NCBI GenBank assembly: GCA_021324635.1
Contig: JAJPIS010000068.1
Span: 1-63,698, forward strand
Length of the DNA: 63,698 nt
Source: Gemmatimonadota bacterium
Lineage (GTDB): Bacteria > Gemmatimonadota > Gemmatimonadetes > Gemmatimonadales > Gemmatimonadaceae
Direction: 5' to 3'
Shown piece by piece: positions 21,643-44,387 of the stretch (its first letter is position 1; each line of letters opens with the position of its first letter). The translations under genes were made by a program, and so were the position numbers. The notes beneath the pieces are model-generated. The model was not told where the DNA came from. It did not search any database and saw only the letters and a list, made by a program, of their open reading frames with translations.

Positions 21643-21931
21643 GGCCGTAAGTTAACGACGACCCGGACGACGCTGACCGGTTCCAGCGTCGGCGTTCTTC
21701 GCGCGCCATCGAGCGCATCGCCGCTCGGCGCTCGGGCGCGGGGTCTTGACACCCATGATGGGTGCGGCCATCCTCAACGGCCCGGTGAGCTACCCGCTCT
21801 GACGTCCCTGGCGGGATCGCCCTCCAGGGTGTGGCGTCCGCACCCCGCAGGGGCCGCTCAGCCAACGAGGTCGGTGCTCTGCGCCGCACCAGCCTCGACC
21901 GCAGTCCCCCTACAAGATGGAGGTAGGACCC
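21643..21931 (+). promoter_or_regulatory. Promoter and structured leader upstream of fae
   Basis: A TTGACA hexamer at 21746-21751 is followed directly by the palindrome ACCCATGATGGGT (21751-21763), which could be an operator overlapping the promoter spacer. No clear -10 box was found. The downstream leader holds two hairpins: CCCTGG/CCAGGG (21806-21829), and GAGG..GGTGC/GCACC..CCTC (21867-21896). A GGAGG-type ribosome site lies about 8 bases before the fae ATG. No known riboswitch consensus was recognised. Confidence 0.45.
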
Positions 21932-22447
21932 ATGGCAGCGGACTTCTTCCTCGGTGAGTCGCTGGTCGGCGACGGCAACGAAGTGGCCCACATCGACCTC
22001 ATCATCGGCGCCAAGAATGGCCACGCGGGTGCGGCGTTCGCGAACGCGCTGACGAACAACAAGGATGGGTTCACGACGCTGCTCGCGGTCGTCACGCCCA
22101 ACCTGCCGGCGAAGCCCGACACGATCCTCTACAACAAGGTCACGATCAAGGGCGCCAAGCAGGCGGTGCAGATGTTCGGGCCGGCGCAGGCCGCCGTCGC
22201 ACGCGCGGTCGTGGACTCGGTGGCGAGCGGCGTCATCCCGCGCGACAAGGTCGAGGACTATTGCATCACGGTCGGGGTCTTCATCCACTGGGACGCCAAG
22301 GACGACAAGAAGATCTTCGACTACAACTACCGCGCGACGCGGGAGTCGATCGAGCGTGCGCTCAAGCACCAGCCGACGGTCGACCAGGTGATTCAGGGCG
22401 CGAAGACGGCGCACCACCCGTTCGCCGGCGGCGCGGACACGAAGTAG
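21932..22447 (+). CDS. fae: Formaldehyde-activating enzyme
   Basis: Fae condenses formaldehyde with tetrahydromethanopterin to methylene-H4MPT. The 171-residue length and the sequence [78 protein letters not shown] and [18 protein letters not shown] match Fae closely. The conserved His of EVAHIDL corresponds to the catalytic histidine. The ATG at 21932 is chosen because a Shine-Dalgarno-like GGAGG precedes it; an in-frame ATG at 21917 lies in the leader. It heads the H4MPT gene cluster and is separated from mtdA by a hairpin. Confidence 0.97.
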
Positions 22448-22517: not shown

Positions 22518-22565
22518 CGTGCTTTGGGTCGGAGACGGCAGGGCTTTCCCTCACCCCTCGTCACG

Positions 22566-23432
22566 ATGAAGCGCCTCCTCCTCCAGCTCGACTCCTCCCG
22601 GCAGGCGAGCACCTTCGATCAGGTCGTCGCGCACGACGCCGGCGCCGACGTCGTCATGGCGCGGGGCGGGATCACGCCCGCCGATGTCCGCGATCTCGTG
22701 CACGGCTGCATCTTCACGCGCGCGCCCAAGGACCTGAAGAACACGGCCGTGTTCATCGGCGGGACCGACATGGCGGCCGGTGAGGCGATCCTCGGTGCCG
22801 CGCAGGCGGCGTTCTTCGGGCCGCTCCGCGTCTCGCTCATGCTCGACTCCAACGGGTCGAACACGACGGCGGTGGCGGCGGTCATGAAGGTGGCGCAGGC
22901 GCTGGGTGGACCGGTGCGCGGAGTGCGGGCCGTCGTCACCGCCGGGACCGGCCCTGTCGGCCAGCGGGTGGCGGGCCTGCTCGCCAGGGCGGGCGCGGAT
23001 GTCCTCATCACCTCGCGCCGGCGCGAGGACGGCGAGCGGGCCCGCGAGGCGATCGTCAAACGGTTAGGCGGCACGGTGCGCGCCGACTGCCTGACGGATG
23101 CGGGTCAGGCGGCGGTCTGCCTCGAGGGGGCGCGGGTCCTCGTCAATTGCGGGCCGGCCGGCGTGCAGATCGTCCCTCGCGCCGCGTGGACGGCGGATCC
23201 CGGGCTCACGGTCGCCGTCGACCTCAACGCCGTCCCGCCGTTCGGGATCGAGGGCATCGACCCGAGCGAGGACGGCGTGGTGCGGGGCCGCGTGACCTGC
23301 GTCGGCGCGCTCGGCGTCGGCAAGCTCAAGATGAAGATCCACAGGGCGGCGATCGCCCGCCTCTTCGAGAGCAACGACGCCGTCCTCGACGCCGAGTCCA
23401 TCCACGTCCTCGCCGAGCAGCTCGCGCAATGA
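22566..23432 (+). CDS. mtdA: NADP-dependent methylene-H4MPT dehydrogenase, MtdA type
   Basis: A 288-residue enzyme oxidising methylene-tetrahydropterin to the methenyl form. Segments such as LLLQLDSS, AVFIGGTDMAAGEAIL, FFGPLRVSLMLDSNGSNTTA, AVVTAGTGPVGQRVAGLLA (the dinucleotide-binding GxGxxG region) and IARLFESNDAVLDAESIHVL follow MtdA more closely than MtdB. In methylotrophs MtdA can also use methylene-H4F. With fae and mch in the same locus, H4MPT is the likely substrate here. ATG 22566 is chosen by homology; the upstream frame is leader sequence. Confidence 0.88.
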   Translation: MKRLLLQLDSSRQASTFDQVVAHDAGADVVMARGGITPADVRDLVHGCIFTRAPKDLKNTAVFIGGTDMAAGEAILGAAQAAFFGPLRVSLMLDSNGSNTTAVAAVMKVAQALGGPVRGVRAVVTAGTGPVGQRVAGLLARAGADVLITSRRREDGERAREAIVKRLGGTVRADCLTDAGQAAVCLEGARVLVNCGPAGVQIVPRAAWTADPGLTVAVDLNAVPPFGIEGIDPSEDGVVRGRVTCVGALGVGKLKMKIHRAAIARLFESNDAVLDAESIHVLAEQLAQ

Positions 23433-23891: not shown

Positions 23892-24968
23892 ATGCGAGTG
23901 ATCGGGATCGATCCCGGGACGGTCTCGATCGACATGTGCGGGATCGACGATGGCGCGGTGTTTCTCGACGCGTCGGTCGCGACGGGGGAGGCGCTCGCGG
24001 ACCCCGCGGGCTTCGTCGCCTCACTCGCGGCGCACGGGCCGCTCGACCTCGTCGCCGGGCCATCGGGGTACGGGCTCCCCCTCGCGCGCGACGCCGACCT
24101 CACCGATGACGCGATCCGGCTCGCGCTGCTCGCTGCACCGGGTGAGGACGGAGGAATCGGCGGCCTCGGCGCGTTGCTCCGCGCGCTCGCCGCCTCGGCG
24201 CTCCCGGTCGTGTTCACGCCCGGCGCGATCCATCTCCCCACCGTCCCGCCGCATCGCAAGGTGAACCGCGTCGATCTCGGAACCGCCGACAAGGTGTGCG
24301 CCGCGGCGCTGGCCCTGCGGGAACAGGCGGCCCGCCGGGGCATCCGGCTGCACGAGACGTCGTTCCTCCTGGTCGAGCTGGGCGGCGCCTTCACCGCCGT
24401 GCTCGCGGTCGACGGCGGCCGGATCGTCAACGGTGCCGGCGGGTCGTCGGGGCCGATCGGTCTTCGCGCCGCCGGCGCGCTCGACGGTGAGGTCGCGTTC
24501 CTCGCCGGCCGGGTCACCAAGCCCCTGCTGTTCACGGGCGGGGTCGCCACGATCGCGGATGTCGCGCCCGACGATGGCGAGGCGGCGCTCGCCGCACCGT
24601 CGACGGCCCGCGCGATCCTCGCCCGCGACGCGTACCTCGACGGCGTCCAGCAGACGGTCGCGGGGTTGGGGTCGATGATCGCACCACCATTCGAGATCGT
24701 CCTCTCCGGCCGCCTCGCGCGGTCGGCCGCGATCGTCGCCGCCGTCACGTCTCGACTGGCGCAGATCGCGCCGGTCTGTCGGCTCGAGGGCTTTGCCCAT
24801 CACGCCAAGCACGCCGCGCAGGGCGCCGCGCTCATCGCCGACGGACTCGCGGGCGGGGCACATCGGGACCTCGTCGACAGTCTCGCCCTCCGCGCGGCCA
24901 CCGGCACCGCGCTCGACCACCTGCACGTCATCAGCCCGGCCCGGGCGCGCGAGCGACTGGGATTGTGA
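23892..24968 (+). CDS. DUF1464-like ASKHA-fold kinase homologue in H4MPT cluster
   Basis: A 358-residue protein opening with MRVIGIDPGTVSIDMCGIDD, a phosphate-1-type loop of the acetate kinase/Hsp70/actin fold. Later segments are VELGGAFTAVLAVDGGRIVN (phosphate-2-like) and FEIVLSGRLARSAAIVAAV. The pattern resembles archaeal DUF1464 proteins, sometimes labelled predicted butyrate kinases. Its true substrate is unknown. Position between mtdA and the Fhc genes, and GTGA overlap with the ATP-grasp gene after it, suggest a step in H4MPT or methanofuran cofactor synthesis, which is inference. Confidence 0.6.
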   Translation: MRVIGIDPGTVSIDMCGIDDGAVFLDASVATGEALADPAGFVASLAAHGPLDLVAGPSGYGLPLARDADLTDDAIRLALLAAPGEDGGIGGLGALLRALAASALPVVFTPGAIHLPTVPPHRKVNRVDLGTADKVCAAALALREQAARRGIRLHETSFLLVELGGAFTAVLAVDGGRIVNGAGGSSGPIGLRAAGALDGEVAFLAGRVTKPLLFTGGVATIADVAPDDGEAALAAPSTARAILARDAYLDGVQQTVAGLGSMIAPPFEIVLSGRLARSAAIVAAVTSRLAQIAPVCRLEGFAHHAKHAAQGAALIADGLAGGAHRDLVDSLALRAATGTALDHLHVISPARARERLGL

Positions 24969-26179
24969 CGCCCGCGCGGGGCGGACCGGCACCGGGCACC
25001 AACGCCATTGCAGAGTACCCGGCAGCGGGCGACCGCCGGCCGGCGGTCGTGATCGCCGGCGTCAGCGTGCGCGCGATGAGCGAGTCGGCGGCCCGTGCCG
25101 GGTACCGCGTGCTCGCGGTCGATGCATTCGGGGATCGGGACCTCACGGCGATCGCCGACGCCCGCTGCGTCATACCGTACAGCGCCGATGCAGTCGCACG
25201 CACGGTAGCCGAGGCGACGGCGGCGATCGGTCGAGTCCCTGTCTGCTATGTCTCGAGCTTCGAGAACCATCCCGAGCTGGTCGCCGCGATGGCCTGCGGC
25301 CGTCCGCTCTGGGGAAACGACGCACGCACGCTCCGTCTCGCGCGCGATCCCGCCCGGGTCGCGGACACGTGGGCGGCCGCCGGGCTCCCGGCGCCGCGCG
25401 TGCGGGCGCGGGCGCCGGGCACCGCCTCACCGGACCGGCGCCGGCGGTGGCTCGAGAAGCCGCGGGCCTCCGGTGGCGGCCACGGGATCCGTCCGTGGGT
25501 CGCCGGCCGGCCGGTCTCGAGGCGGTTCGTGCTCCAGGAGCGGATCGACGGGAGCCCGGGCTCGATCCTCTTCATCGCCGACGGGCGGTCGGCCGTCACG
25601 GTCGCTCTCACGCGGCTGCTCGTCGGCGAGCCCGGGCTCGGCGCCGCGCCCTTCCGCTACTGCGGCAACATCCTCGCACCGGCGTCCGATCCGGACTGGG
25701 GCAGCCGCTCCCGCCTGGCGGAGATGGCGCCGGCACTCACCAGCGCCGCTACGCGGGCGTTCGGCCTCGTCGGCGCCAACGGCGTCGACGTGATCGCCCG
25801 CCGCCGCGGCGCCCGCCCGGTGCCGATCGAAGTCAATCCGCGCTTCACGGCCGCGATGGAGCTCGTCGAGCGGCAGGCCGGCGTATCGATGTTCGCGGCC
25901 CACGCGGCCGCGTGCACCGGCCGGCTCGATGCCCTGCACCGCGTCGCACCCGCGGAGGCGGCCGTCGGGAAGGCGATCGTCTTCGCTCGGCGTGCCGTGC
26001 TCGTGGGCGATACCGACCAGTGGCTCGCGGACCCCGACGTGCGGGATATCCCGGCGCCTGGGACCACGATCCCGCGCGGCGCCCCCATCTGCACGGTCTT
26101 CGCCGAGGAGGCGACGATGGCCGCGTGCTACGACGCGCTGTTCGCACGCGCCGGCCGCATTTACGCCGAGCTGGAATAG
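24965..26179 (+). CDS. ATP-grasp ligase of the H4MPT cluster
   Basis: A 404-residue protein. The N-terminal pre-ATP-grasp domain has PAVVIAGVSVRAMSESAARA and YRVLAVDAFGDRDL. The ATP-grasp core has WLEKPRASGGGHGIRPW (lysine and Gly loop), RFVLQERIDGSPGSILFIAD and PVPIEVNPRFTAAMELVER with the metal-binding E-x-N-P-R. It resembles the predicted ATP-dependent carboligases (COG2232 type) that sit in H4MPT clusters of methylotrophs. It probably forms an amide or acyl-phosphate bond during cofactor assembly. The GTG start overlaps the preceding stop. Confidence 0.75.
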   Translation: MTPARGGPAPGTNAIAEYPAAGDRRPAVVIAGVSVRAMSESAARAGYRVLAVDAFGDRDLTAIADARCVIPYSADAVARTVAEATAAIGRVPVCYVSSFENHPELVAAMACGRPLWGNDARTLRLARDPARVADTWAAAGLPAPRVRARAPGTASPDRRRRWLEKPRASGGGHGIRPWVAGRPVSRRFVLQERIDGSPGSILFIADGRSAVTVALTRLLVGEPGLGAAPFRYCGNILAPASDPDWGSRSRLAEMAPALTSAATRAFGLVGANGVDVIARRRGARPVPIEVNPRFTAAMELVERQAGVSMFAAHAAACTGRLDALHRVAPAEAAVGKAIVFARRAVLVGDTDQWLADPDVRDIPAPGTTIPRGAPICTVFAEEATMAACYDALFARAGRIYAELE

Positions 26180-26233
26180 ATTTCGCCCGATCGCCGTGCA
26201 TCGAGCGCAACAGTGCCTGACGAGGCAGTGTCC

Positions 26234-27526
26234 ATGACCGATCATGTCGTCGAGCACGCCACCTGCCTCGGCTGCGGCTGCGCCTGCGACGACATCACGG
26301 TCGTGGTCCGCGAGGACCGGATCGTCGAGCCGGAGCGGGCCTGCTCCCTGGGACGACTCTGGTTCGGGACGGGGGCGGTGCCGGCCCGCGTCCGCACGGA
26401 GGGCGCGCGTGACGTCCCGCTCGCAAGTGCGCTCGACGCCGCCGCGACGTTGCTGCGCGATGCGGCGCGCCCCCTCGTCTACCTCAGCGCCGACATCTCG
26501 TGCGAGGCGCAGCGGACGGCGATCGCTGTCGCCGACGTGCTGGGCGCCATGCTCGACAGCGTGACCTCGGGCACCGCTGGGACCGGTGTGCTCGCGGCCC
26601 AGCGTCGGGGGCGGGCCTCGGCAACGCTCGGCGAAGTGCGAAACCGCGCCGACGGCGTCGTCTTCTGGGGCGTGGACCCGGCCATCCGCTATCCGCGCTT
26701 CGCGAGCCGGTACGCACCCGACCCGGTCGGGCTGTACATCCCCGCGGGCCGACGAGGCCGCGTCGTGATGGCGATCGACGTCGGCACCGACCGCGCGCCG
26801 GCGGACGCCGACCACCGGGTCGCGTTCACGACGGATGAAGAGGTCACCGCGATCGAGCTGACGCGGGCCGCCGTGATCGGCCGCGGAGCGGGCGGCGGCA
26901 GCGACTCCCTCGCCGAGCGGACGAGGGCACTCGCCGACGGGCTCCGGGGGGTCCGCTACCTCGCCATCGTCGTCGACGGGGAGCCGGTCGCCGGGCGCGA
27001 CCCGCGCCGGGCCGAGGCCATGCTGCGGCTCGTCGAAGCGCTGAACGGGCCGACCCGCTGCGTGCTCGTCACGCTCCGCGCCGGCGGCAACCGCTCCGGC
27101 GCCGACGCCGTCATGACCTGGCAGACCGGGTACCCGATGGCGGTCGATTTCCTGCGCGGCGCCCCGCGCTATCGGCCCGAGGACGGTGCGGCGGCGCAGC
27201 TCGCGCGAGGTGAGATCGACACGGTACTCGTCGTCGGCTCGCCGCTCGCGCTCCCCGACGAGGTGCGGGCGCGATTGGGAGCGGCAGGACACCGCATCGC
27301 GATCGGGCCCCGCGCGTCCGAGAGCCCCTACGAGACCGACGTCGCGATCGACACCGGGATCGCGGGGATCCACGAGGCCGGCACGGCGACCCGGATGGAC
27401 GACATCCCGCTGCCCCTTCGGCCCGCGTTGCGCGTGCCTTCCCTGTGCGACACGGCCGCCACACTCCGGACGCTCGCGGCGCGACTCGTCGCCGGGCGAG
27501 CGGCGCGCCGGCCTGAGGTCGCGTGA
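26234..27526 (+). CDS. fhcB: Formyltransferase/hydrolase complex subunit B (FwdB/FmdB homologue)
   Basis: A 430-residue homologue of formylmethanofuran dehydrogenase subunit B. The N-terminal CLGCGCACDD (residues 11-20) corresponds to the cysteine cluster of FwdB, and ACSLGRLWFGTG follows. In the archaeal enzyme a Cys/Sec near a CHGPS motif binds the molybdenum or tungsten pterin. The matching stretch here reads DSVTSGTAGTG, with no cysteine, which fits loss of redox activity in bacterial Fhc. ATG 26234 is preferred; an in-frame GTG lies at 26213. It overlaps fhcA as GTGA. Confidence 0.9.
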   Translation: MTDHVVEHATCLGCGCACDDITVVVREDRIVEPERACSLGRLWFGTGAVPARVRTEGARDVPLASALDAAATLLRDAARPLVYLSADISCEAQRTAIAVADVLGAMLDSVTSGTAGTGVLAAQRRGRASATLGEVRNRADGVVFWGVDPAIRYPRFASRYAPDPVGLYIPAGRRGRVVMAIDVGTDRAPADADHRVAFTTDEEVTAIELTRAAVIGRGAGGGSDSLAERTRALADGLRGVRYLAIVVDGEPVAGRDPRRAEAMLRLVEALNGPTRCVLVTLRAGGNRSGADAVMTWQTGYPMAVDFLRGAPRYRPEDGAAAQLARGEIDTVLVVGSPLALPDEVRARLGAAGHRIAIGPRASESPYETDVAIDTGIAGIHEAGTATRMDDIPLPLRPALRVPSLCDTAATLRTLAARLVAGRAARRPEVA

Positions 27527-29142
27527 CTCGGCTCCGGATCACCGGCGGCATGGTGCACGATCCAGCGAACGGGATCGACGGCACCGTCGGCGACATCTGC
27601 ATCGAGAACGGTCGGATCGTCGCCACGCTTCCCCCGGACGCGCCACGGCTCGACGCGCGCGGACTGGTGGTGATGCCGGGCGGGATCGACATCCACGCCC
27701 ACGTCGCGTCGTCGAGCATCAACCAGGCGCGGCGGCTCCTCCCCGAGGACCACGCGGGAGCGCCGATCGCCGCGCCGGTCCTTGCGCACGACGACAACGG
27801 CGAGGTCCTGATCCCCCGGTCGGGCAGCGGCGGAGTGGTGCCGAGCACGTTCACCACGGGCTATCGCTACGCGGGACTCGGCTACACGACCGTCTTCGAC
27901 GCCGCCGTCGCGCCCGTGAGCGCCCGCGAGGCCCACGCCCAGTTCGACGACACGCCGATCGTCGACGGCGGCTGCTACATCCTCATGGGCAACGACGCGC
28001 TCCTGCACCGGCAGATCGCGGCCGGCGAGCGCGAGCGGGCCCGCGAGTACGTCGCCTGGCTGCTCGGCGTCACCCGCGGCTACGCGATCAAGGTCGTGAA
28101 CCCCGGCGGGATCGAGCTGTGGAAGCGCAACGTGCGGGCGGTCGGCTCGCTCGACGACCCGGTCGGCGATCCGCGGGTGACGCCCCGCGCGATCGTGGAG
28201 ACGCTCGCCGATGCGGCCACGGCGCTCGGCCTGCCGCACCCGGTCCACATCCACTGCAACAACCTCGGCCTGCCCGGCAACGTCGCCCTCACGCTCGACA
28301 CGATGCGCGCGCTCGAGGGACGGCGCGCCCATTTCACGCACCTCCAGTTCCACGCCTACGGTGGCGCGGCGGGGAAATGGTCGTCGGGCGCCCGGCAGAT
28401 CACCGACTATCTGGCCACCCATCCCGAGGCGAGCGGGGACGTGGGGCAGGTCCTGTTCGGCAACGCCTGCACGGTCACCGCCGACGGCGCCGTGGAGTAC
28501 CTCCTGCACGCGAGCAGCGGCCGGAAGTGGGTGAACGTCGACGTCGAGGTCGAGACGGGGTGCGGGGTCGTCCCGTACACCTACCGCGACCGGGCGGCCG
28601 TGAGCGCGCTCCAGTGGGCGATCGGCCTCGAGCTCTTCCTCCTCTCCCCCGACCCCTGGCGCCTCGTCCTCTCGACCGACCATCCCAACGGCGCCAGCTT
28701 CCTCAGCTACCCGCAGTTGATCCGGCTCCTCATGGACCGATCCTATCGCGACGCGCAGCTCGCGACGGTCAACCAGAAACTGCTCGCCGGCAGTGCGCTC
28801 GCCGACGGCATCGCTCGCGAGTACTCGCTGAACGAGATCGCCATCGTGACCCGCGCCGGCCCGGCGCGGCTGCTCGGGCTCACCACCAAGGGCCACCTCG
28901 GCGTCGGCGCCGACGCGGACATCACGCTCTACGCGCCGGACGCCGACCGGGCGCGCATGTTCGAGACACCTCGCCACGTGATCAAGGGTGGGACGCTGGT
29001 GGTCGAGGAAGGTCAGCTCCGCCGCGCGCCGGCCGGCGCCCGCCATCATGTACGGCCGACCTACGATCGGGCGATCGAGCGGACGGTGCGCGAGTTCGCG
29101 GACCGCTACTTCAGCGTCTCACTCGAGAACTACGGCGCATGA
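27523..29142 (+). CDS. fhcA: Formyltransferase/hydrolase complex subunit A, formylmethanofuran hydrolase
   Basis: A 539-residue amidohydrolase-fold protein. GGIDIHAHVASSSINQARRL carries the first metal ligands, HIHCNNLGLPGN and HFTHLQFHAYGG further histidines, and VLSTDHPNGASFLSYP the late aspartate. The C-terminal barrel-sandwich has LLGLTTKGHLGVGADADITL. FhcA hydrolyses formyl-methanofuran to formate, completing C1 oxidation. Operon order is fhcB-fhcA-fhcD-fhcC, with 4-base overlaps at both ends of this gene. Confidence 0.95.
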   Translation: MTRLRITGGMVHDPANGIDGTVGDICIENGRIVATLPPDAPRLDARGLVVMPGGIDIHAHVASSSINQARRLLPEDHAGAPIAAPVLAHDDNGEVLIPRSGSGGVVPSTFTTGYRYAGLGYTTVFDAAVAPVSAREAHAQFDDTPIVDGGCYILMGNDALLHRQIAAGERERAREYVAWLLGVTRGYAIKVVNPGGIELWKRNVRAVGSLDDPVGDPRVTPRAIVETLADAATALGLPHPVHIHCNNLGLPGNVALTLDTMRALEGRRAHFTHLQFHAYGGAAGKWSSGARQITDYLATHPEASGDVGQVLFGNACTVTADGAVEYLLHASSGRKWVNVDVEVETGCGVVPYTYRDRAAVSALQWAIGLELFLLSPDPWRLVLSTDHPNGASFLSYPQLIRLLMDRSYRDAQLATVNQKLLAGSALADGIAREYSLNEIAIVTRAGPARLLGLTTKGHLGVGADADITLYAPDADRARMFETPRHVIKGGTLVVEEGQLRRAPAGARHHVRPTYDRAIERTVREFADRYFSVSLENYGA

Positions 29143-30062
29143 GTCGGACAGCGGCGGGCGGGCCGGCGGTCCGGATCGATGACACCTTCGCCGAGGGGTT
29201 CCCGATGCGCGGCGCGCGCATCGTCATCACCGCGGCGACGATGCGCTGGGCGCGCCAGGCGGGCACGACGATGACGGGGTTTGCCACCTCGGTGATCGGG
29301 TGCAAGTGCGAGGCGGCGATCGAGCGGGAGCTGCCGGCCGAGGGGACGCCCGATGGCCGCCCGGGCGTCAGCGTGCTCCTGTTCGCGACCGACTCCGCCA
29401 GCCTCCAGCAGCGGCTCATCGAGCGGATCGGGCAGACCGTGCTCACCTGCCCCACCACGGCGTGCTTCGACGGGCTGCCGGACGCACCGGATCGGATGCC
29501 GGTCGGGCGCGCATTGCGCATCTTCGGCGACGGGTTCCAGGCGAGCAAGGTGATCGCCGGGCGGCGATACTGGCGCATTCCGGTCATGGAGGGGGAGTTC
29601 CTCGTGCAGGAGGATTTCGGCCGCGTGCGGGGGATCGGTGGCGGCAATTTCCTGCTGCTGGCCGAGTCGGCCGACGCCGCGCTCGACGCCGCCGAGGCCG
29701 CGGTCGGGGCGATCGGCGAGCGGACGGAAGGAGTGATCCTGCCGTTCCCCGGTGGCATCGTGCGGAGCGGCAGCAAGGTCGGGTCGAGGCGCTACGCGAA
29801 CATGGTCGCCACGACCAACGACCCGTTCGCGCCCACGCTGCGCCCGATCACCGGCACGGCGCTCCCGGACGGCGTCAACAGCGTGTACGAGATCGTGCTC
29901 GACGGCCTCGACTTCCCCGCGATCGCGGGGGCGATGCGGGCCGGGATCGCCGCCGCCATGCTGCCGGGCGTGCACACGATCACGGCCGGCAACTACGGCG
30001 GCAAGCTCGGCCCGCACCACTTCCACCTGAGGCGCATCATGGCCGGCGAGCTCACGCCATGA
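29139..30062 (+). CDS. fhcD: Formylmethanofuran:H4MPT formyltransferase (Ftr homologue)
   Basis: A 307-residue enzyme moving the formyl group between H4MPT and methanofuran. RIDDTFAEGFPMRGARIVIT, GFATSVIGCKCEAAIEREL, GRRYWRIPVMEGEFLVQEDF, GGGNFLLLAESADAALDAAE and GVHTITAGNYGGKLGPHHFH are Ftr landmarks. ATG 29139 overlaps the fhcA stop (ATGA), setting the start. It forms the Fhc complex with the A, B and C subunits. Confidence 0.96.
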   Translation: MSRTAAGGPAVRIDDTFAEGFPMRGARIVITAATMRWARQAGTTMTGFATSVIGCKCEAAIERELPAEGTPDGRPGVSVLLFATDSASLQQRLIERIGQTVLTCPTTACFDGLPDAPDRMPVGRALRIFGDGFQASKVIAGRRYWRIPVMEGEFLVQEDFGRVRGIGGGNFLLLAESADAALDAAEAAVGAIGERTEGVILPFPGGIVRSGSKVGSRRYANMVATTNDPFAPTLRPITGTALPDGVNSVYEIVLDGLDFPAIAGAMRAGIAAAMLPGVHTITAGNYGGKLGPHHFHLRRIMAGELTP

Positions 30063-30072
30063 TGGGCCGCGC

Positions 30073-30945
30073 ATGGCGCCGATCACGCTGACGCTGACGG
30101 CCGACCTCCGGCCGTACGGGCGGGTCGCCGCCGACGTGATCGCGCCCGATCGGATGGCGACCATGTCGGGCGCCGAGCTCGCCGCGCTCCCGGTCTGGAT
30201 CGCACGGGGCACGACGGGCACGGATGCCGGGGCCACCATCGCCGCGCGCCGCACGCTCCCGCTGGGCGCGTTGTTCACCATCGAGGGTGAGCGGTCGGAC
30301 GTGGTGCGCCTGCGCGGGGACCTGCGGGCGGTCGACGCACTGGGGGCGGGCATGCGCGGCGGCACGCTGATCGTCGAGGGGAGCGTCGGCGATGAGGTCG
30401 GGCGCGGGATGGCCGGAGGGTCGATCGCCGTCGAGGGCTCGGCCGGTCACGACGCCGGTCGGACGATGCTCGGCGGACAGCTCACCGTGGCCGGCGATGT
30501 CGGTGACCGCCTCGGCGGCCCCCTGCCCGGCGCGTCGCGCGGGATGATGGGCGGCGAGATCTTCGTCCGCGGACGGGCGGGACGCGAGGTGGCGCTGGGC
30601 GTTCGGCGGGGGCTGATCGTCGTCGGCGGCGACGTGGAGGACGGCTGCGGGCAGGGGATGCTGGCCGGGACAGTGGTCGTCGTGGGACGCGCCGGCGGCA
30701 CGGTCGGCGAATGGAGCAAGCGCGGGTCGGTGATCGCGATCGGTGGTGCGCGGATCCCGCCGACGTACCGGTTCGCCTGCACGTACCGCCCGGCCTATCT
30801 GCGCCTCCTCTACCGCCACCTGCGGACACGGGGGATCGCCGTGCCGGAGCATGCGATCGCCGGCCGATATCTCCGTTACTGTGGAGACATGTCCGAGCTT
30901 GGCCGCGGCGAGATCCTGACCCTGGATGGCCCGGGCGATGCATGA
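30073..30945 (+). CDS. fhcC: Formyltransferase/hydrolase complex subunit C (FwdC homologue)
   Basis: A 290-residue beta-helix protein with the glycine-rich repeats of FwdC and the glutamate synthase alpha C-terminus: GAGMRGGTLIVEGSVGDEVG, GRGMAGGSIAVEGSAGHDAG, then MMGGEIFVRGRAG. It is the scaffold subunit of the Fhc complex. ATG 30073 begins 10 bp after the fhcD stop; ATGs nearer the stop are out of frame. Confidence 0.93.
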   Translation: MAPITLTLTADLRPYGRVAADVIAPDRMATMSGAELAALPVWIARGTTGTDAGATIAARRTLPLGALFTIEGERSDVVRLRGDLRAVDALGAGMRGGTLIVEGSVGDEVGRGMAGGSIAVEGSAGHDAGRTMLGGQLTVAGDVGDRLGGPLPGASRGMMGGEIFVRGRAGREVALGVRRGLIVVGGDVEDGCGQGMLAGTVVVVGRAGGTVGEWSKRGSVIAIGGARIPPTYRFACTYRPAYLRLLYRHLRTRGIAVPEHAIAGRYLRYCGDMSELGRGEILTLDGPGDA

Positions 30946-30960: not shown

Positions 30961-31977
30961 ATGACCCCGACGATCCCGCCCCCGCGAGAAGGCGGTGTGC
31001 CGGGCGCGCGCGCGGCCGACGCCGCCGCATTCGCCCTCAACGACCGTGCCTGGGCGATCGCCGACGAGATGGCCGCCCAGGCCTCCGAGCTGCGGGTGGC
31101 GGTGCGCACGATGCCGGGCGGCGCGCGGCTGATCGACGCGGGGATCGACGTCCCGGGCGGCTACGGCGCCGGGCTGGCGCTCGCCCGGATCTGCATGGGC
31201 GGACTCGGGCATGTGGCCTACGAGCCCGTGACGATCGGGGGCAACCCGATGCCGGGCGTTCAGGTGTGGACGGACCACCCGGCGGTGAGCTGCATGGCGT
31301 CGCAGTACGCCGGGTGGGCGATCAAGGTGGGCGACTACTTCGGGATGGGCTCGGGGCCGCTCCGGGCCCACGCGCGAGTGGAGCGCGAGCTCTTCGGGAA
31401 GCTGGGCTACGCCGAGCAGGCGACACGCGGCGTGCTGGTGCTCGAGACGCGCGCCCAGCCGACCGACGCCGTCGCGGCGTGGGTCGCCGAGCGCGCTCGA
31501 CTGGCCCCGTCGGCGCTGACGCTGATCGTCGCTCCGACGGCGAGCATCGCCGGGTGTGTGCAGATCGTGGCCCGCGTGCTCGAGACCGGGCTCCACAAGA
31601 TGGACGCGCTCGGCTTCGACATCACTCGCGTCGTGAGCGGGGTCGGCACCGCGCCCGTTCCTCCCGTGCCCGCGACCGACCTGCACGGCATCGGTCGGAC
31701 GAACGACTGCGTCCTGTACGGCGCTCAGGCGCGATTCGTCGTCGACGCCGACGACGCCGAGCTCGCCGCGCTCGTGTCGCGCGTTCCGGCCGACGCCTCG
31801 CACGATTATGGCGCGCCGTTCTCCGAGACCTTCAGGCGATACGGCAACGACTTCTACAAGATCGACCCGATGCTGTTCAGTCCCGCTGAAGTCTGGCTCA
31901 CCAGCGTGCGGAGCGGCCGGACCGTTCACGCCGGCCGGTTGAACCCGGAGGTGTTGAGCCGCTCCTTCGCCGGGTAA
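30961..31977 (+). CDS. mch: Methenyltetrahydromethanopterin cyclohydrolase
   Basis: A 338-residue enzyme converting methenyl-H4MPT to formyl-H4MPT. LNDRAWAIADEMAAQASELR, GGYGAGLALARICMGGLGHV, HPAVSCMASQYAGWAI, YFGMGSGPLRAHARVERELF and GIGRTNDCVLYGAQARFVVD are typical Mch segments. The start is at ATG 30961, 15 bp after fhcC. It supplies the link between the MtdA-like dehydrogenase and the Fhc complex. Confidence 0.97.
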   Translation: MTPTIPPPREGGVPGARAADAAAFALNDRAWAIADEMAAQASELRVAVRTMPGGARLIDAGIDVPGGYGAGLALARICMGGLGHVAYEPVTIGGNPMPGVQVWTDHPAVSCMASQYAGWAIKVGDYFGMGSGPLRAHARVERELFGKLGYAEQATRGVLVLETRAQPTDAVAAWVAERARLAPSALTLIVAPTASIAGCVQIVARVLETGLHKMDALGFDITRVVSGVGTAPVPPVPATDLHGIGRTNDCVLYGAQARFVVDADDAELAALVSRVPADASHDYGAPFSETFRRYGNDFYKIDPMLFSPAEVWLTSVRSGRTVHAGRLNPEVLSRSFAG

Positions 31978-32034: not shown

Positions 32035-32358
32035 ATGCCCGCCCATCTCGTCGTGTTGTACAATGCGCCGAAGGATCCCGGCGCGTTCGAGCGGTACTAT
32101 GCGGCGACGCACCTCCCGCTGCTCGATGCCAACGCCCGCTCGATCGGGCACACGAAGGCAGAATTCGTGAAGTTCGCGAGCGCCGTCGACGGGTCGGCGC
32201 CGTCGTTCTACCGGAAAGCCGAGCTGACCTTCGAGTCGATGGACGCCCTCCGCAGAGGGCTGGCGTCGGAGGGATTCAAGAAAGTCGGCGGCGATCTCGG
32301 GAACTTCGCGACCGGCGGCTTCGTGGCGCTGATCGGCGAGCTCACCAACCGGCCGTAG
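32035..32358 (+). CDS. EthD family protein
   Basis: A 107-residue ferredoxin-like dimeric alpha-beta barrel protein. HLVVLYNAPKDPGAFERYYA, THLPLLDANARSIGHTKAEF and FESMDALRRGLASEGFKKVG follow the EthD pattern. The function is unknown; such proteins assist or catalyse small oxidative steps. Its place between mch and the RimK-like ligase may be incidental. Confidence 0.8.
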   Translation: MPAHLVVLYNAPKDPGAFERYYAATHLPLLDANARSIGHTKAEFVKFASAVDGSAPSFYRKAELTFESMDALRRGLASEGFKKVGGDLGNFATGGFVALIGELTNRP

Positions 32359-32397: not shown

Positions 32398-33378
32398 GTG
32401 CCGCCACCGGTCGCGCCCGTCGCCGGGGCCCGGCTCACGGCCAGCGTCGCGGCGGGCCGGGGCGGCCACGCCGGGCCGCGGGTCGTCATCCTGAGCGCTC
32501 GCCAGGGCTGGCACACGGACGAGCTTGCCCGGGCATTTCGCGCGCGCGGGGCCGTCCCGGACGTGCAGCCGTACGAGCGACTCGTCGCCCGAATCGGGTG
32601 GCGCGGTGGCGGCAGTGTCGAGGGGCAGGGGCCGATGGGGCTCGGGGCCGACGGCGTCTTCGCGCGCATCATCCCCAACGGGTCGCTCGAGCAGATCATC
32701 TATCGAGTCGATGCCCTGCACTGGCTCGAGGACGCGGGCGTCCCGGTGATGAACTCGCCGCGCGCGATCGAGCGCACCGTCGACAAGTTCTACACGTCGG
32801 CGTTGCTCGAGATGGCCGGGCTCGAGACCCCGGAGACGGTCGTCTGCGAGCGGAGCGAGGACGCGATCGCCGCGTTTCGCGCGATGGGCGATGTCATCGT
32901 CAAGCCGCTGTTCGGATCGATGGGCCTCGGGATCGTGCGGGTGAGCGATGAGGAGATCGCCTGGCGGGTGTTCCGTGCACTCGATGCCGTGCGCGGCGTC
33001 TACTACATCCAGCGAACCGTGCCGCACGAGGGGCGCGACCTCCGTGTGTTCGTCGTCGGCGACACCGTGCTCGGCGCCATCGAGCGCCATGCGGCACCGG
33101 GCGGGCCGACGTGGCGAACCAACTACTCCCGCGGGGGCCGCGCGATCGCGATCGCGGCGAGCGCCGCGGAGGCCGCGATGGCGGTGCGCGCCACGCGCGC
33201 CGTGGGGGCGGACTACGCGGGGGTCGACCTTCTGCCCGGATCCGACGGGCGGATGTACGTTCTCGAGGTCAATGCCATCCCGGGCTGGCACGGACTCCAG
33301 CATGCGACAGGGCTGGACGTCGCGGGCGCGCTCGCCGAGCACCTGCTGTCGCGCATCGCGGTCGCGACCGGCGGCTGA
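32398..33378 (+). CDS. RimK-type ATP-grasp ligase, MptN-like
   Basis: A 326-residue ATP-grasp protein starting at GTG 32398. FARIIPNGSLEQIIYRVDAL and VPVMNSPRAIERTVDKFYTS precede the nucleotide-binding DVIVKPLFGSMGLGIVRVS. YYIQRTVPHEGRDLRVFVVG and YVLEVNAIPGWHGLQ (metal ligands E-x-N) complete it. It resembles the RimK subgroup that includes tetrahydromethanopterin:glutamate ligase MptN. In this locus it probably adds glutamate or a similar group to the pterin or methanofuran side chain, which is inference. Confidence 0.8.
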   Translation: MPPPVAPVAGARLTASVAAGRGGHAGPRVVILSARQGWHTDELARAFRARGAVPDVQPYERLVARIGWRGGGSVEGQGPMGLGADGVFARIIPNGSLEQIIYRVDALHWLEDAGVPVMNSPRAIERTVDKFYTSALLEMAGLETPETVVCERSEDAIAAFRAMGDVIVKPLFGSMGLGIVRVSDEEIAWRVFRALDAVRGVYYIQRTVPHEGRDLRVFVVGDTVLGAIERHAAPGGPTWRTNYSRGGRAIAIAASAAEAAMAVRATRAVGADYAGVDLLPGSDGRMYVLEVNAIPGWHGLQHATGLDVAGALAEHLLSRIAVATGG

Positions 33379-33385
33379 GCGACCC

Positions 33386-34273
33386 ATGTCGGCGCTCGCC
33401 GCGGAATTCGTCGCCACCGCCGCGCAGCTCGCCTGCCTGCTCGAGGTGTCGGCGCCGAAGCCCGGCAACGTCTCGCCGGACCGCCCCTTTCGCGACCTCC
33501 GCTACGAGGACTTTCTCGCGAGCGCCGCGGCGATCGGGCCGGGGCTCGCCCGCGCCGCCGAGCGTCCGCTGGGTCCGACCATTCTCGCCGCGGTCGAGAG
33601 CACCGCCGGCTGGACCTCGTCCAACACCAATCTCGGCATCGTGCTCCTGTTCGCGCCGCTCGCGCGCGCGGCGCTCGCCGACGCGGCCGGGTCGCTGCGC
33701 GAGCGCGTGGCGAGCGTGCTCGCGGCCACGACCGTCGCCGACGCGCGCGCCGCCTACGCCGCGATCCGACTCGCCGGGCCGGGCGGGCTGGGGCGGGTAC
33801 CGGAGCAGGATGTGCGCGACGAGCCGGCCGTGACCCTGCTCGAAGCGATGCGACTCGCGGCCGATCGGGACGCGGTCGCGCGCGAGTACGCGACCGGCTT
33901 CGAGATCACGTTCGGCATCGGCTGCCCGGCGGTCGTCCGGGCGCGGGGCGCGGGGCTGGGGTGGGATGACGCCGTCGTCGAGACATATCTGACCTTGTTG
34001 TCGGCCAGGCCGGACAGCCTCATCGCGCGGAAAGTCGGCGGTGCGGCGGCCGCCGAGGTCTCGCGTGCGGCCGCCGCGGCGGTCGAAGCCGGGGGTGTTC
34101 GGACGCCCGCGGGGCGGGCGCGGATCGCCGCGCTCGACGCCACCCTGCGCGACTCGGAGAACCGGCTCAACCCGGGGACGACGGCCGACCTCACGGCGGC
34201 CGCGCTGTTCGTCGCGCTGCTCGAGGGCGGCTGGCGGGAGGGACGCGCGGGCGCGCTATCTTCGAGACCATGA
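33386..34273 (+). CDS. CitG/MdcB-like triphosphoribosyl-dephospho-CoA synthase family protein
   Basis: A 295-residue helical protein. LEVSAPKPGNVSPDRPFRDL and ESTAGWTSSNTNLGIVLLFA match the conserved K-P-G-x-V and N-T-x-L-G blocks of the CitG family. The C-terminal RDSENRLNPGTTADLTAAAL is also typical. Members found in H4MPT clusters are thought to transfer a triphosphoribosyl or related group during cofactor synthesis rather than serve citrate lyase. No citrate or malonate lyase genes are present. The stop overlaps the next start as ATGA. Confidence 0.85.
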   Translation: MSALAAEFVATAAQLACLLEVSAPKPGNVSPDRPFRDLRYEDFLASAAAIGPGLARAAERPLGPTILAAVESTAGWTSSNTNLGIVLLFAPLARAALADAAGSLRERVASVLAATTVADARAAYAAIRLAGPGGLGRVPEQDVRDEPAVTLLEAMRLAADRDAVAREYATGFEITFGIGCPAVVRARGAGLGWDDAVVETYLTLLSARPDSLIARKVGGAAAAEVSRAAAAAVEAGGVRTPAGRARIAALDATLRDSENRLNPGTTADLTAAALFVALLEGGWREGRAGALSSRP

Positions 34274-34791
34274 CCCATCATTCGTCGTTCCGCGTGCACG
34301 TGGCGAAGGACTACCTCGTCTTCTCGTCCGCCCACTTCATCACCTTCGCCGGCCATCGGTGCGAGGCGCTGCACGGGCACAATTACCGGGTCGGCGTCGC
34401 GCTCGACGGCGAGCTCCAGCCGGACGGGTGGTACGTGCTCGACTTCTCCGTCCTCAAGCAGGTCATGAAGCGGCTGTGCGACGAGATCGATCACAAGGTG
34501 CTGCTGCCCTCGTCGAACCCGCGGCTCACCGTCAGCGAGCGCGACGGCAGCGTGACGGTGGCGTATGCCGGAACCCCGCGGTATGTCTTCCCGCGGGAGG
34601 ATTGCGCCCTGCTCCCGATCCCCAACACGACGGTGGAGATGCTGGCGCAGTACCTGGCCGGTCGGCTGCGGCGTGAGCTGCCCGACGACGCGCACGTCTC
34701 GCGGATCGAGGTCGAGGTCGAGGAGAGCTTCGGTCAGTCGGCCGTCTACCGCGACCAGCTCGACCCGGCGGATCCCACGGAGACTCGGTAG
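34270..34791 (+). CDS. 6-pyruvoyl-tetrahydropterin synthase family protein
   Basis: A 173-residue T-fold protein. FSSAHFITFAGHRCEALHGH gives the zinc-binding histidines and the active-site cysteine. LDFSVLKQVMKRLCDEIDHK and PNTTVEMLAQYLAGRLRREL are standard PTPS/QueD segments. In this operon it more likely makes or modifies a pterin precursor of H4MPT than queuosine, since no que genes are nearby. It is coupled to the CitG-like gene. Confidence 0.88.
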   Translation: MTHHSSFRVHVAKDYLVFSSAHFITFAGHRCEALHGHNYRVGVALDGELQPDGWYVLDFSVLKQVMKRLCDEIDHKVLLPSSNPRLTVSERDGSVTVAYAGTPRYVFPREDCALLPIPNTTVEMLAQYLAGRLRRELPDDAHVSRIEVEVEESFGQSAVYRDQLDPADPTETR

Positions 34792-41828: not shown

Positions 41829-42563
41829 TCAGTACCGGCCGGCGATCGGAACGCCGGCGTGGAACGCGGTACCGACGAGCGCGCCATCGCACCCGTCGGC
41901 GGCGAGGGCCGCCAGCTCCACCCCGCTCGAGATGCCGCCACCAATGAGGAGTTCGACACTCGGAAACGCCGCACGGATCGCCCGCGCGAGCGGGAAATCG
42001 GGGCCGACAACCTGTCCGACACGCGCCAGGTCGAGCAGGAGGATGGACGGCGCGCCGGCGGCGATCGCGCGCTGCGCGATCGCCTGCGGGTCCAGTTCAG
42101 CGAGCGGCGACCCGGGGCGCGTGATCGGCACGCCGGCGCGGAGATCGAGGCTGAACACCACCCGCTCGCGCCCCACCTGCCGGACGATCCGCGCCAGCTC
42201 GGCCACCGATCCCAGCGTCTCCAGGCCGACCACCACCCTCCGCGCGCCGATGTCGATCGCGTGCTGGGCCGCCTCGGGGGTCGTGATCCCGGCGTCCACC
42301 ATCACCGGCGGCACCTCACGGCAGATGGCGGCGAGGGTCGGCGCGCCGCGGGGGGACCGGATGCCGGCGATCGCGTCGAGGTCGGCCACGTATATTTCCG
42401 CCAGGCCAGCCCCATCGCGGTACGCACGCGCCAACGCCAGCGCGTCCCCCACGTCGTCCGGCGCCAGGAGCGGGCTGCGCACGGGCTCATAGCTGTCGCG
42501 CAGCCCGCCCCGGGCGTGCACCGCTCGACCGGCCTTGAGATCGATCACGCCGATGACACGCAC
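41829..42563 (-). CDS. HisA-like TIM-barrel protein of the H4MPT/methanofuran cluster
   Basis: A 244-residue protein starting at GTG 42563. VIGVIDLKAGRAVHARGGLR, IYVADLDAIAG, PVMVDAGITTPEAAQHAIDI, RRVVVGLETLGSV, VVFSLDLRAG and LLIGGGISSGVELAALAADG follow the HisA/HisF barrel. It lacks a histidine-operon setting and resembles the HisA-related proteins (COG1411 type) seen with archaeal-type C1 genes. The substrate is unknown. It is divergent from the mfnF-like gene with starts about 34 bp apart, so they share a promoter region. Confidence 0.75.
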   Translation of the reverse strand: MRVIGVIDLKAGRAVHARGGLRDSYEPVRSPLLAPDDVGDALALARAYRDGAGLAEIYVADLDAIAGIRSPRGAPTLAAICREVPPVMVDAGITTPEAAQHAIDIGARRVVVGLETLGSVAELARIVRQVGRERVVFSLDLRAGVPITRPGSPLAELDPQAIAQRAIAAGAPSILLLDLARVGQVVGPDFPLARAIRAAFPSVELLIGGGISSGVELAALAADGCDGALVGTAFHAGVPIAGRY

Positions 42564-42597
42564 CGCATCAATATGGCGCCGTCCGATCACCGGCGGC

Positions 42598-43653
42598 GTG
42601 GTCGGCTGGGACATTGGCGGGGTCAACACCAAGGTGGCTCGGGTGGCCGAGTCGGCGCCGTCGCCAGACCATCGGCTGCGCCCCCCCCTCGGGGCGCCGA
42701 CGGCGACGATCCGGCCGTACGAGATCCAGCGCGACCCGGCTGCGCTCCCGGCCCTGCTCGCGTCGCTCGCCCAGGCTGTCGGCCATCGACCGGGCGATGC
42801 GCATGCGGTGACGATGACGGCCGAGCTGTCACAGCTCTTCCGCCGCAAGCGCGACGGGGTCGCGTTCGTCCTCGACGCCGTGGCGGCGGCGTTTCCGGGC
42901 GACGACATCGGCATCTTCGGCACTCGCGGCGCGTTCCTGTCGGTCGAGGCCGCACGCGAGGATCCGATCGCGGTCGCCGCGGCGAACTGGGCGGCGACGG
43001 CGGCGCTCGTCGCACAGCTCGTGGGAACGGCACTCCTGATCGACATCGGCACGACGACGACGGACGTGATCCCGATCGTCGACGGCACGGTCTGCGCCGC
43101 CGGCCTCACCGATCCGGATCGCCTCCGGAGCGGCGAGCTGCTCTACCTGGGCGCCGTTCGGACGCCGGTCGAGGCGATCACGCACGCGGTACCGATCGAC
43201 GGCGGGATGGCAGGCGTGAGCGCCGAGGGGTTCGCGCTCGCGGGTGACGTCCACCTGTGGCGCGGTACGCTGCCGCCGAGCGCGTACGCCGTGCCGACGC
43301 CGGACGGTCGCCCGGCCACCCGGGAGCTCGCGGGAGAGCGACTGGCGCGCGTGGTCTGCGGCGACCGCGAGCTGCTCGACACGGCGGCGCTCGACGCGAT
43401 CGCGAACGCGGTGGCCGACGCGCAGGTCGCGCGCACGGCCGCCGCGATCGCCCGGGTACGCGCCCGGCATCCGCGGATCGCCACCGCCGTGGTGACCGGT
43501 ATCGGTGATTTCATCGCCGCGGCCGCCGCGGCGCGCGCCGGCCTCGCGGTTCGCCATCTCGCCGACGATGTCGGGCTCGACGCCTCGCACGCCGCCCCGG
43601 CGGCCGCGGTCGCGATCCTCCGCGCCATGCAGTCGCACGCGCGCGTGACATGA
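42598..43653 (+). CDS. mfnF: MfnF-like hydantoinase/oxoprolinase-related protein
   Basis: A 351-residue ASKHA-fold protein. VVGWDIGGVNTKVARV opens it, LLIDIGTTTTDVIPIVDGTV is the second phosphate loop, and AVVTGIGDFIAAAAAARAG lies near the end. It matches the COG1548 group. In Methanocaldococcus jannaschii the MfnF member joins the furan and tyramine parts of methanofuran. GTG 42598 is preferred because ATG 42553 would overlap the divergent HisA-like start. The stop overlaps the mfnE-like gene (ATGA). Confidence 0.8.
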   Translation: MVGWDIGGVNTKVARVAESAPSPDHRLRPPLGAPTATIRPYEIQRDPAALPALLASLAQAVGHRPGDAHAVTMTAELSQLFRRKRDGVAFVLDAVAAAFPGDDIGIFGTRGAFLSVEAAREDPIAVAAANWAATAALVAQLVGTALLIDIGTTTTDVIPIVDGTVCAAGLTDPDRLRSGELLYLGAVRTPVEAITHAVPIDGGMAGVSAEGFALAGDVHLWRGTLPPSAYAVPTPDGRPATRELAGERLARVVCGDRELLDTAALDAIANAVADAQVARTAAAIARVRARHPRIATAVVTGIGDFIAAAAAARAGLAVRHLADDVGLDASHAAPAAAVAILRAMQSHARVT

Positions 43654-44387
43654 CCCACTACCCGGGCGCGCCCGCGTGGCCGCCGCGCACGGTGGACGTG
43701 GTCGTCAAGGCGGGCGGCGCGCTGCTGCGCGATGCCAGGCAGTTCGCGACGCTCGTGGCGGCGATCGATGACCTCGCCCAGGACGCGGGTCACGGTGCCT
43801 GTCGGACGCTGGTCGTCCCGGGCGGCGGGCCGTTCGCCGATGCGGTCCGCGACGCGGACCGCCGGCTCGGGGCCGGCGACGATGCCGCGCACTGGATGGC
43901 GATCCTCGCCATGGACCAGCACGCGCACCTGATCGCCGCCCGTGCGCCCGGCGCGCGGATGGTCACCGACGAGCCCAGCGCGGCCGCCGCCCTGGCCGCC
44001 GGCTGCGTGCCGGTGCTCGCGCCCTACCGCTGGCTGCGGCGGGCCGACCCGCTGCCGCACAGCTGGTCGGTGACGAGCGATAGTGTCGCGCTCTGGCTCG
44101 CGGCGGCGCTCGGCGCCCTGTCCCTGGTGCTGGTCAAGCCGATCGTGGGCCCACTCGGCGCGGTCGCCGACCCGTACGTGGCGCAGCTCCTCGCGGGCGG
44201 CGGGGCGGCGCGCGCCCCGGTCGCGGTCGAGGTCTGCCGGTGCGACGCGCTCATCGCGACCGTGCGGCGGCTCGCACGCCCGCTCGACCAGCTCGACCGG
44301 CGACCCGACCCGGGACCTCATCGGCCCGACGGTGTATCTTCGAGCGGGCCCGCGCAGTCGGCTGACCGGTCCGCGCCCGGTGTCTAA
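43650..44387 (+). CDS. mfnE: MfnE-like amino acid kinase
   Basis: A 245-residue amino-acid-kinase-fold protein. VDVVVKAGGALLRDARQFAT and RTLVVPGGGPFADAVRDADR are the nucleotide and substrate loops, and HSWSVTSDSVALWLAAALGA follows. It fits the COG2054 group that includes MfnE, which phosphorylates the aminomethylfuran alcohol phosphate in methanofuran synthesis. The C-terminal 25 residues are low complexity. Coupling to mfnF supports a methanofuran role. Confidence 0.8.
   Translation: MTHYPGAPAWPPRTVDVVVKAGGALLRDARQFATLVAAIDDLAQDAGHGACRTLVVPGGGPFADAVRDADRRLGAGDDAAHWMAILAMDQHAHLIAARAPGARMVTDEPSAAAALAAGCVPVLAPYRWLRRADPLPHSWSVTSDSVALWLAAALGALSLVLVKPIVGPLGAVADPYVAQLLAGGGAARAPVAVEVCRCDALIATVRRLARPLDQLDRRPDPGPHRPDGVSSSGPAQSADRSAPGV

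Follow-up and report, generated by a model that had tools for sequence, protein, structure and literature searches.

The window, a 63,698-nucleotide stretch of DNA from a Gemmatimonadota bacterium, carries two overlapping genes within a cluster for one-carbon (C1) metabolism, one encoding a protein of the family DUF1464 and the other an ATP-grasp ligase. The question raised by this locus is whether the two proteins act in successive steps on one cofactor or belong to different pathways. The sequence-only reading took them as an undescribed kinase-ligase pair that activates and conjugates a precursor of tetrahydromethanopterin (H4MPT) or of a methanofuran variant. H4MPT is a one-carbon carrier in methylotrophs and many archaea, and we know of no assigned enzyme for several steps of its synthesis. 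Methylotrophy using an H4MPT/methylofuran-type pathway has already been described for Gemmatimonadota (PMC5103831).

Gene Organization of the Window

The DUF1464 and ATP-grasp genes encode proteins of 358 and 404 residues, respectively, at the coordinates first reported, and overlap by GTGA at positions 24965–24968 (Table 1). The pair is flanked by an mtdB-like gene upstream and fhcB downstream, as was described before; the upstream gene had been called mtdA and is termed mtdB-like here, and Pfam cannot tell mtdA from mtdB. On the 3' side, fhcB is followed by fhcA, fhcD, fhcC, mch, an EthD-domain gene, and genes for a RimK-type ligase, a CitG-like protein and a PTPS-family protein. The small EthD-domain gene (TIGR02118, positions 32035–32358), located between mch and myfB, is kept in many, not all, of the related clusters and is duplicated in some. 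The nearest named relatives of the window are Gemmatimonadota soil MAGs.

Table 1. Features identified in the window, with positions, strand and the evidence for each assignment.
Feature	Position	Strand	Evidence
fae, formaldehyde-activating enzyme	21917–22447	+	PF08714 230.8 bits; TIGR03126 244 bits
mtdB-like methylene-H4MPT dehydrogenase	22560–23432	+	PF09176 Mpt_N 105 bits
DUF1464 protein, acetokinase-like ASKHA fold, putative ATP-dependent enzyme of H4MPT-type pterin synthesis	23892–24968	+	PF07318 272.6 bits; AlphaFold model; genomic profile and context
ATP-grasp ligase, OrfY/MyfA counterpart (methylofuran glutamate ligase)	24965–26179	+	PF02655 (ATP-grasp_3) 61.7 bits; tblastn; tree
fhcB	26213–27526	+	TIGR03129 278.9 bits, under the curated cut-off of 327.8
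fhcA	27523–29142	+	homologs and annotated proteobacterial fhcA match the same places
fhcD, start approximate	29139–30062	+	homologs and annotated proteobacterial fhcD match the same places
fhcC	30073–30945	+	homologs and annotated proteobacterial fhcC match the same places
mch, methenyl-H4MPT cyclohydrolase	30961–31977	+	homologs and annotated proteobacterial mch match the same places
myfB/orf5, RimK-like ATP-grasp (methylofuran polyglutamate ligase)	32398–33378	+	NF040720 MptN 233.6 bits (cut-off 350); TIGR00768 189.5 bits
orf7, CitG-like	33380–34273	+	PF01874 260 bits
PTPS-family pterin synthase	34270–34791	+	PF01242 83 bits
mfnF (orf9), methylofuran core synthesis	42535–43653	+	TIGR03123 283 bits, above cut-off
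mfnE-like amino-acid-kinase-family protein	43650–44387	+	PF00696 48.5 bits; adjoins mfnF

Assignment of the ATP-Grasp Ligase

The E-x-N-P-R site noticed in the sequence is present as EVNPR, and its four fixed residues do not vary across 12 relatives of the window protein. In a structure search, the model of the protein showed an ATP-grasp fold, with biotin carboxylases at the top, then L-amino acid ligase and PylC among the top matches. A tblastn search of plasmid records found counterparts in Azospirillum, Azoarcus, Paraburkholderia, Thiodictyon and others, encoded on large replicons and in most cases sharing 29–35% identity at 87–94% coverage. The gene order in Azospirillum oryzae, Azoarcus and Thiodictyon is RFAP synthase, mtdB, the ATP-grasp gene, mch, RimK-type ligase, CitG and fae, and these mtdB-adjacent ATP-grasp genes are the nearest relatives of the window protein outside DUF1464-type clusters. 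The order matches that named MtdB, OrfY, Mch, Orf5 and Orf7 in Methyloversatilis universalis (PMC5023235), so that by position the ATP-grasp gene corresponds to OrfY.

In a tree of 52 sequences, in which the MyfA sequence of Methylobacillus flagellatus itself is not included, the window protein groups in a single clade with the mtdB-adjacent ATP-grasp proteins of proteobacteria (support 100/99). The second ATP-grasp protein of the proteobacterial clusters, MfnD/Orf1, encoded beside mfnF, forms a clade of its own in the same tree (100/98). OrfY of M. flagellatus (Mfla_1659) has been renamed MyfA, and its glutamate-adding role for methylofuran was reported in 2021; in the orfY mutant, methylofuran was lost and its core built up carrying either no glutamate or a single one (PMC8141765). 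The window and contig C50 of the same genome also encode MyfB, MfnF, MfnE, MfnB and Fhc, and contig C50 groups RFAP synthase, DUF447, a PabB-like protein, DUF6513 and mfnB.

The window ligase is thus, as far as homology can tell, the counterpart of the known OrfY/MyfA. The claim that it is undescribed fails because gene order, tree and homology all point to MyfA (PMC8141765). The two are alike as ATP-grasp proteins of an H4MPT/methylofuran cluster, and differ in the low identity to most proteobacterial counterparts given above and in local order, where DUF1464 separates mtdB from myfA in the window and fhcBADC follows instead of mch. Identity with MfnD/Orf1, the tyramine:glutamate ligase, which is also an ATP-grasp enzyme, was rejected; the NCBIfam MfnD match is weak (14.2 bits against a curated 400), and the protein lies outside the MfnD/Orf1 clade. 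An Orf1/MfnD gene was not found in the window, in contig C50 (G000, L148), or in the stretches of G110 and G199 that carry the cluster, and MyfA may cover the MfnD step in genomes where that gene was not found.

Fold and Conserved Residues of the DUF1464 Protein

The window protein is a full-length member of DUF1464 (PF07318), a family to which no function has been assigned; residues 5–344 match positions 1–325 of the 327 in the profile, for which the gathering threshold is 23.5 bits. No paper naming DUF1464, COG2441 or PF07318 was found in a search of the literature available without subscription, in agreement with the earlier statement that, as far as could be judged, this step is not assigned in known bacterial pathways.

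The N-terminus, MRVIGIDPGT, carries the ASKHA phosphate-1 pattern that had been recognized in the sequence, and its D7-P-G-T is invariant in 51 homologs. The phosphate-loop motif E162-x-G and the motifs G130-T-A-D-K134 and G273-R274 are likewise invariant in the 51-sequence alignment, and the invariant residues comprise D7, G9, T10, D128, D133, E162, D198, E200, K210, G273 and R274. The AlphaFold model obtained from this alignment (pLDDT 93.7) is nearest to the acetate, propionate and butyrate kinases of the acetokinase family, with Z values of 20–23 over about 295–308 residues and about 14–19% identity. Both the predicted fold and the phosphate-binding loops place DUF1464 among the ASKHA proteins. 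A single-sequence phmmer search against the PDB gave nothing useful, and a Pfam scan of the protein found neither an acetate-kinase match nor an added DNA-binding domain.

Ten of the 51 DUF1464 proteins gave a weak HMM match (best 2e-8) to methanogenesis marker protein 12 (TIGR03281), which we take to be an uncharacterized methanogen protein, and judging from this match the two may be distant relatives. Marker protein 12 as the equivalent of DUF1464 in genomes that have RFAP synthase and lack DUF1464 was not supported; none of 200 Thermoproteota genomes reached its cut-off, and the weak matches were DUF1464 itself.

These features also bear on whether the protein is an enzyme. Several ASKHA proteins do not act as metabolic kinases, among them FtsA and ROK repressors, which were matched in the fold search, and many H4MPT makers are without DUF1464; all of this would suit a non-catalytic sensor or scaffold of the pathway. 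Such a role is nevertheless unlikely, as the invariant nucleotide loops and the further invariant acidic and basic residues suggest catalysis, and the Pfam scan shows no added DNA-binding domain.

Genomic Neighborhoods and Co-Occurrence of DUF1464

A total of 80 genome loci with DUF1464 were compared, of which 68 were bacterial and 12 archaeal. Some of the archaeal loci carry an almost complete operon for H4MPT synthesis. That of L203 consists of DUF447, MptE, a flavoprotein, DUF1464, FolE2, PTPS, RFAP synthase and DUF6513; that of L204 is similar and encodes a member of the MptE sequence family, and that of L116 consists of DUF447, RFAP synthase, DUF1464, a flavoprotein, DUF6513 and FolE2. 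An MptD-type aldolase gene lies directly downstream of DUF1464 in L096 and three relatives, and CitG-like and nucleotidyltransferase-domain genes adjoin it in L205 and L206. Four of the 12 archaeal loci showed no gene for H4MPT synthesis in the vicinity. Proteins with a nucleotidyltransferase domain (PF01909) are repeatedly encoded close to DUF1464 and to CitG-like or FolE2 genes in archaea (L205, 5818–6729; L206, 5890 onward; L116, 14347–15375).

Three candidate roles as a replacement enzyme were rejected. DUF1464 is co-clustered with MptE in L203, and with the member of the same family in L204, which excludes a replacement of MptE; the aldolase beside it in L096 excludes a replacement of DHNA/MptD; and loci of Actinomycetota, Rokubacteria and Myxococcota carry both DUF1464 and MfnD, which excludes a stand-in for the latter.

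Among 200 Thermoproteota genomes, DUF1464 occurs in 52, and 51 of these have RFAP synthase. The corresponding table (51, 1, 25, 123) gives a Fisher p value of 2.6e-27, where Fisher values overstate independence because the genomes share ancestry. RFAP synthase was counted here at 80 bits or more, below the curated 113.5, because full-length matches continue unbroken down to that score. The genes for DUF1464 and RFAP synthase are no more than 300 bp apart in 13 of the 52 genomes and no more than 2 kb apart in 19. MfnF was found in only 10 of the 52 and is distributed independently of DUF1464 (Fisher p 0.51). All these profiles are of draft genomes, so that absences may reflect assembly gaps. 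The control genome of S. acidocaldarius has DUF1464 and RFAP synthase, and Fae and MfnF are absent from it.

In 200 Gemmatimonadota genomes, DUF1464 was found in 17, Fae in 18 and both in 16; RFAP synthase exceeded the cut-off in 21, including all 17 with DUF1464. Among 42 DUF1464 genomes from multiple phyla, 33 were over the RFAP synthase cut-off, 2 more were plausible, 4 gave weak matches (all Chloroflexota, E about 1e-5 to 1e-3) and 3 gave no match, with incomplete assembly possible for these 7. The Chloroflexota loci L066, L076, L080 and L111 have a C1 cluster with DUF1464, and only weak RFAP synthase matches genome-wide; this can be due either to assembly gaps or to a replaced enzyme. DUF1464 was not found on plasmids in the search of plasmid records.

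These profiles show that DUF1464 tracks H4MPT synthesis, not methylofuran, across Bacteria and Archaea. A part in methylofuran or methanofuran synthesis would agree with the presence of both pathways in bacterial clusters and with the membership of MfnF, a protein of that pathway, in the hydantoinase-A family, which is likewise assigned to the ASKHA superfamily. It is very unlikely in view of the 42 Thermoproteota DUF1464 genomes without MfnF and of the 12 archaeal loci, in none of which Fhc or Mfn genes were detected within stretches of up to 10 kb on each side. The expectation that homologs would be confined to genomes with H4MPT or Fhc therefore holds for its H4MPT half and falls for its methylofuran half, because DUF1464 is common without MfnF and nearly always accompanied by RFAP synthase. 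The proposed cofactor-synthesis role survives in that both proteins most likely serve H4MPT/methylofuran coenzyme synthesis, with the methylofuran role withdrawn from DUF1464.

RFAP synthase also occurs without DUF1464, in 25 Thermoproteota and four Gemmatimonadota genomes and in M. jannaschii, M. acetivorans and Haloferax, which indicates that DUF1464 is not needed in every form of the pathway. Comparison of one genome without it, G006, with DUF1464 genomes found no substitute gene, where the C1 cluster of G006 stops at a contig end.

Pairing of DUF1464 with MyfA

C1-pathway genes lie beside DUF1464 in 66 of the 68 bacterial loci; mtdB is its immediate upstream neighbor in 50 of the loci, and myfA its immediate downstream neighbor in 44. 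The adjacency of mtdB, DUF1464 and the ATP-grasp gene is therefore beyond chance. Overlaps of 4–8 bases between DUF1464 and the ATP-grasp gene were seen in 7 of 12 other Gemmatimonadota loci scored; the remaining loci have wider overlaps that depend on the choice of start codon.

The arrangement differs in other lineages. The order DUF6513-DUF1464-fhcD is seen in Actinomycetota, in many Chloroflexota and in a single Myxococcota locus, where myfA is located separately, behind mtdB. In the mosaic Gemmatimonadota clusters L054, L063, L090 and L114, DUF1464 follows mtdB, and a proteobacterial-type MyfA is encoded on the opposite strand; in G006, of the same class as the window genome, mtdB is followed directly by myfA. 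Because of these separate loci, foreign-type MyfA proteins and the absence of DUF1464 from G006, the coupling of DUF1464 and MyfA is a lineage-specific arrangement, not a fixed unit. The four mosaics join a local-type mtdB-DUF1464 segment to a proteobacterial-type mfnF-mfnD-myfA block, with fhc genes downstream, and the block includes myfB in L054 and L063.

A functional pair, in which DUF1464 phosphorylates the substrate of a subsequent conjugation by the ATP-grasp enzyme, would account for the overlap and for the frequent adjacency. We consider it highly improbable, since the separations just described are joined by archaeal DUF1464 genes without MyfA in the neighborhood, and since ATP-grasp enzymes form their own acyl phosphate, so that a separate kinase is not needed (PMC8141765). 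The coupled activation and conjugation steps of the sequence-only reading are accordingly given up.

Discussion

The explanation that we regard as probable is that the two genes serve two cofactor pathways, one gene each, with MyfA in methylofuran synthesis and DUF1464 in an ATP-dependent step of the H4MPT-type pathway. By homology and gene order, MyfA would activate a carboxylate with ATP to an acyl phosphate and attach glutamate to the methylofuran side chain as it is extended, an activity for which the genetic evidence comes from the M. flagellatus protein. The GTGA overlap would then reflect translational coupling of two genes needed together for the C1 pathway, not two steps on one molecule.

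DUF1464 would catalyze a lineage-variable step in the synthesis of tetrahydromethanopterin or of its relatives in archaea. The reaction would most likely be a phosphoryl transfer to a hydroxyl group on a pathway intermediate close to the RFAP synthase reaction; the word kinase is taken from the fold and the loops, and ATP use and this placement are inferred. Judging from its model, the protein is probably an acetokinase-fold enzyme that depends on ATP and has a substrate other than a short-chain acid, because the kinase arginine and histidine positions are not conserved; only 22 of 51 sequences have R at the position aligned to the arginine in GTRSGD, and an invariant Glu is aligned to the histidine of HLGNG, in a profile alignment that is weak and suggestive only. 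A true acetate, propionate or butyrate kinase, to which the best fold matches and a weak NCBIfam butyrate-kinase match would point, can hardly be correct given these residues, the scores against curated kinase families (NF002834, 28.8 bits with a cut-off of 222; TIGR02707, 13.8 bits with a cut-off of 289.1) and the pterin and C1 genes around DUF1464.

Since FolE2, PTPS or MptD, MptE, RFAP synthase and DUF6513 adjoin DUF1464, it is unlikely to repeat their steps. DUF6513 proteins are presumably the condensing enzyme of H4MPT synthesis, and to our knowledge the steps without an assigned enzyme fall around the ribose/ribitol part of the molecule. The DUF1464 step would be placed there, and the protein is a good candidate for a step of the pathway that still lacks an enzyme. 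More specifically, and tentatively, DUF1464 could be a missing enzyme of H4MPT-type coenzyme synthesis in many non-methanogenic lineages, an ASKHA kinase with a novel substrate, either an arylamine-ribitol or a ribosyl intermediate; it would mark a second version of the pathway that is common to Archaea and Bacteria, and absent from the methanogens tested and the proteobacterial clusters seen.

For the ligase, the assignment carries MyfA beyond proteobacteria, into Gemmatimonadota and other phyla. For DUF1464, its tracking of RFAP synthase across two domains makes it a direct, testable candidate for H4MPT synthesis and points to a form of the H4MPT pathway that is not represented by the usual model organisms.
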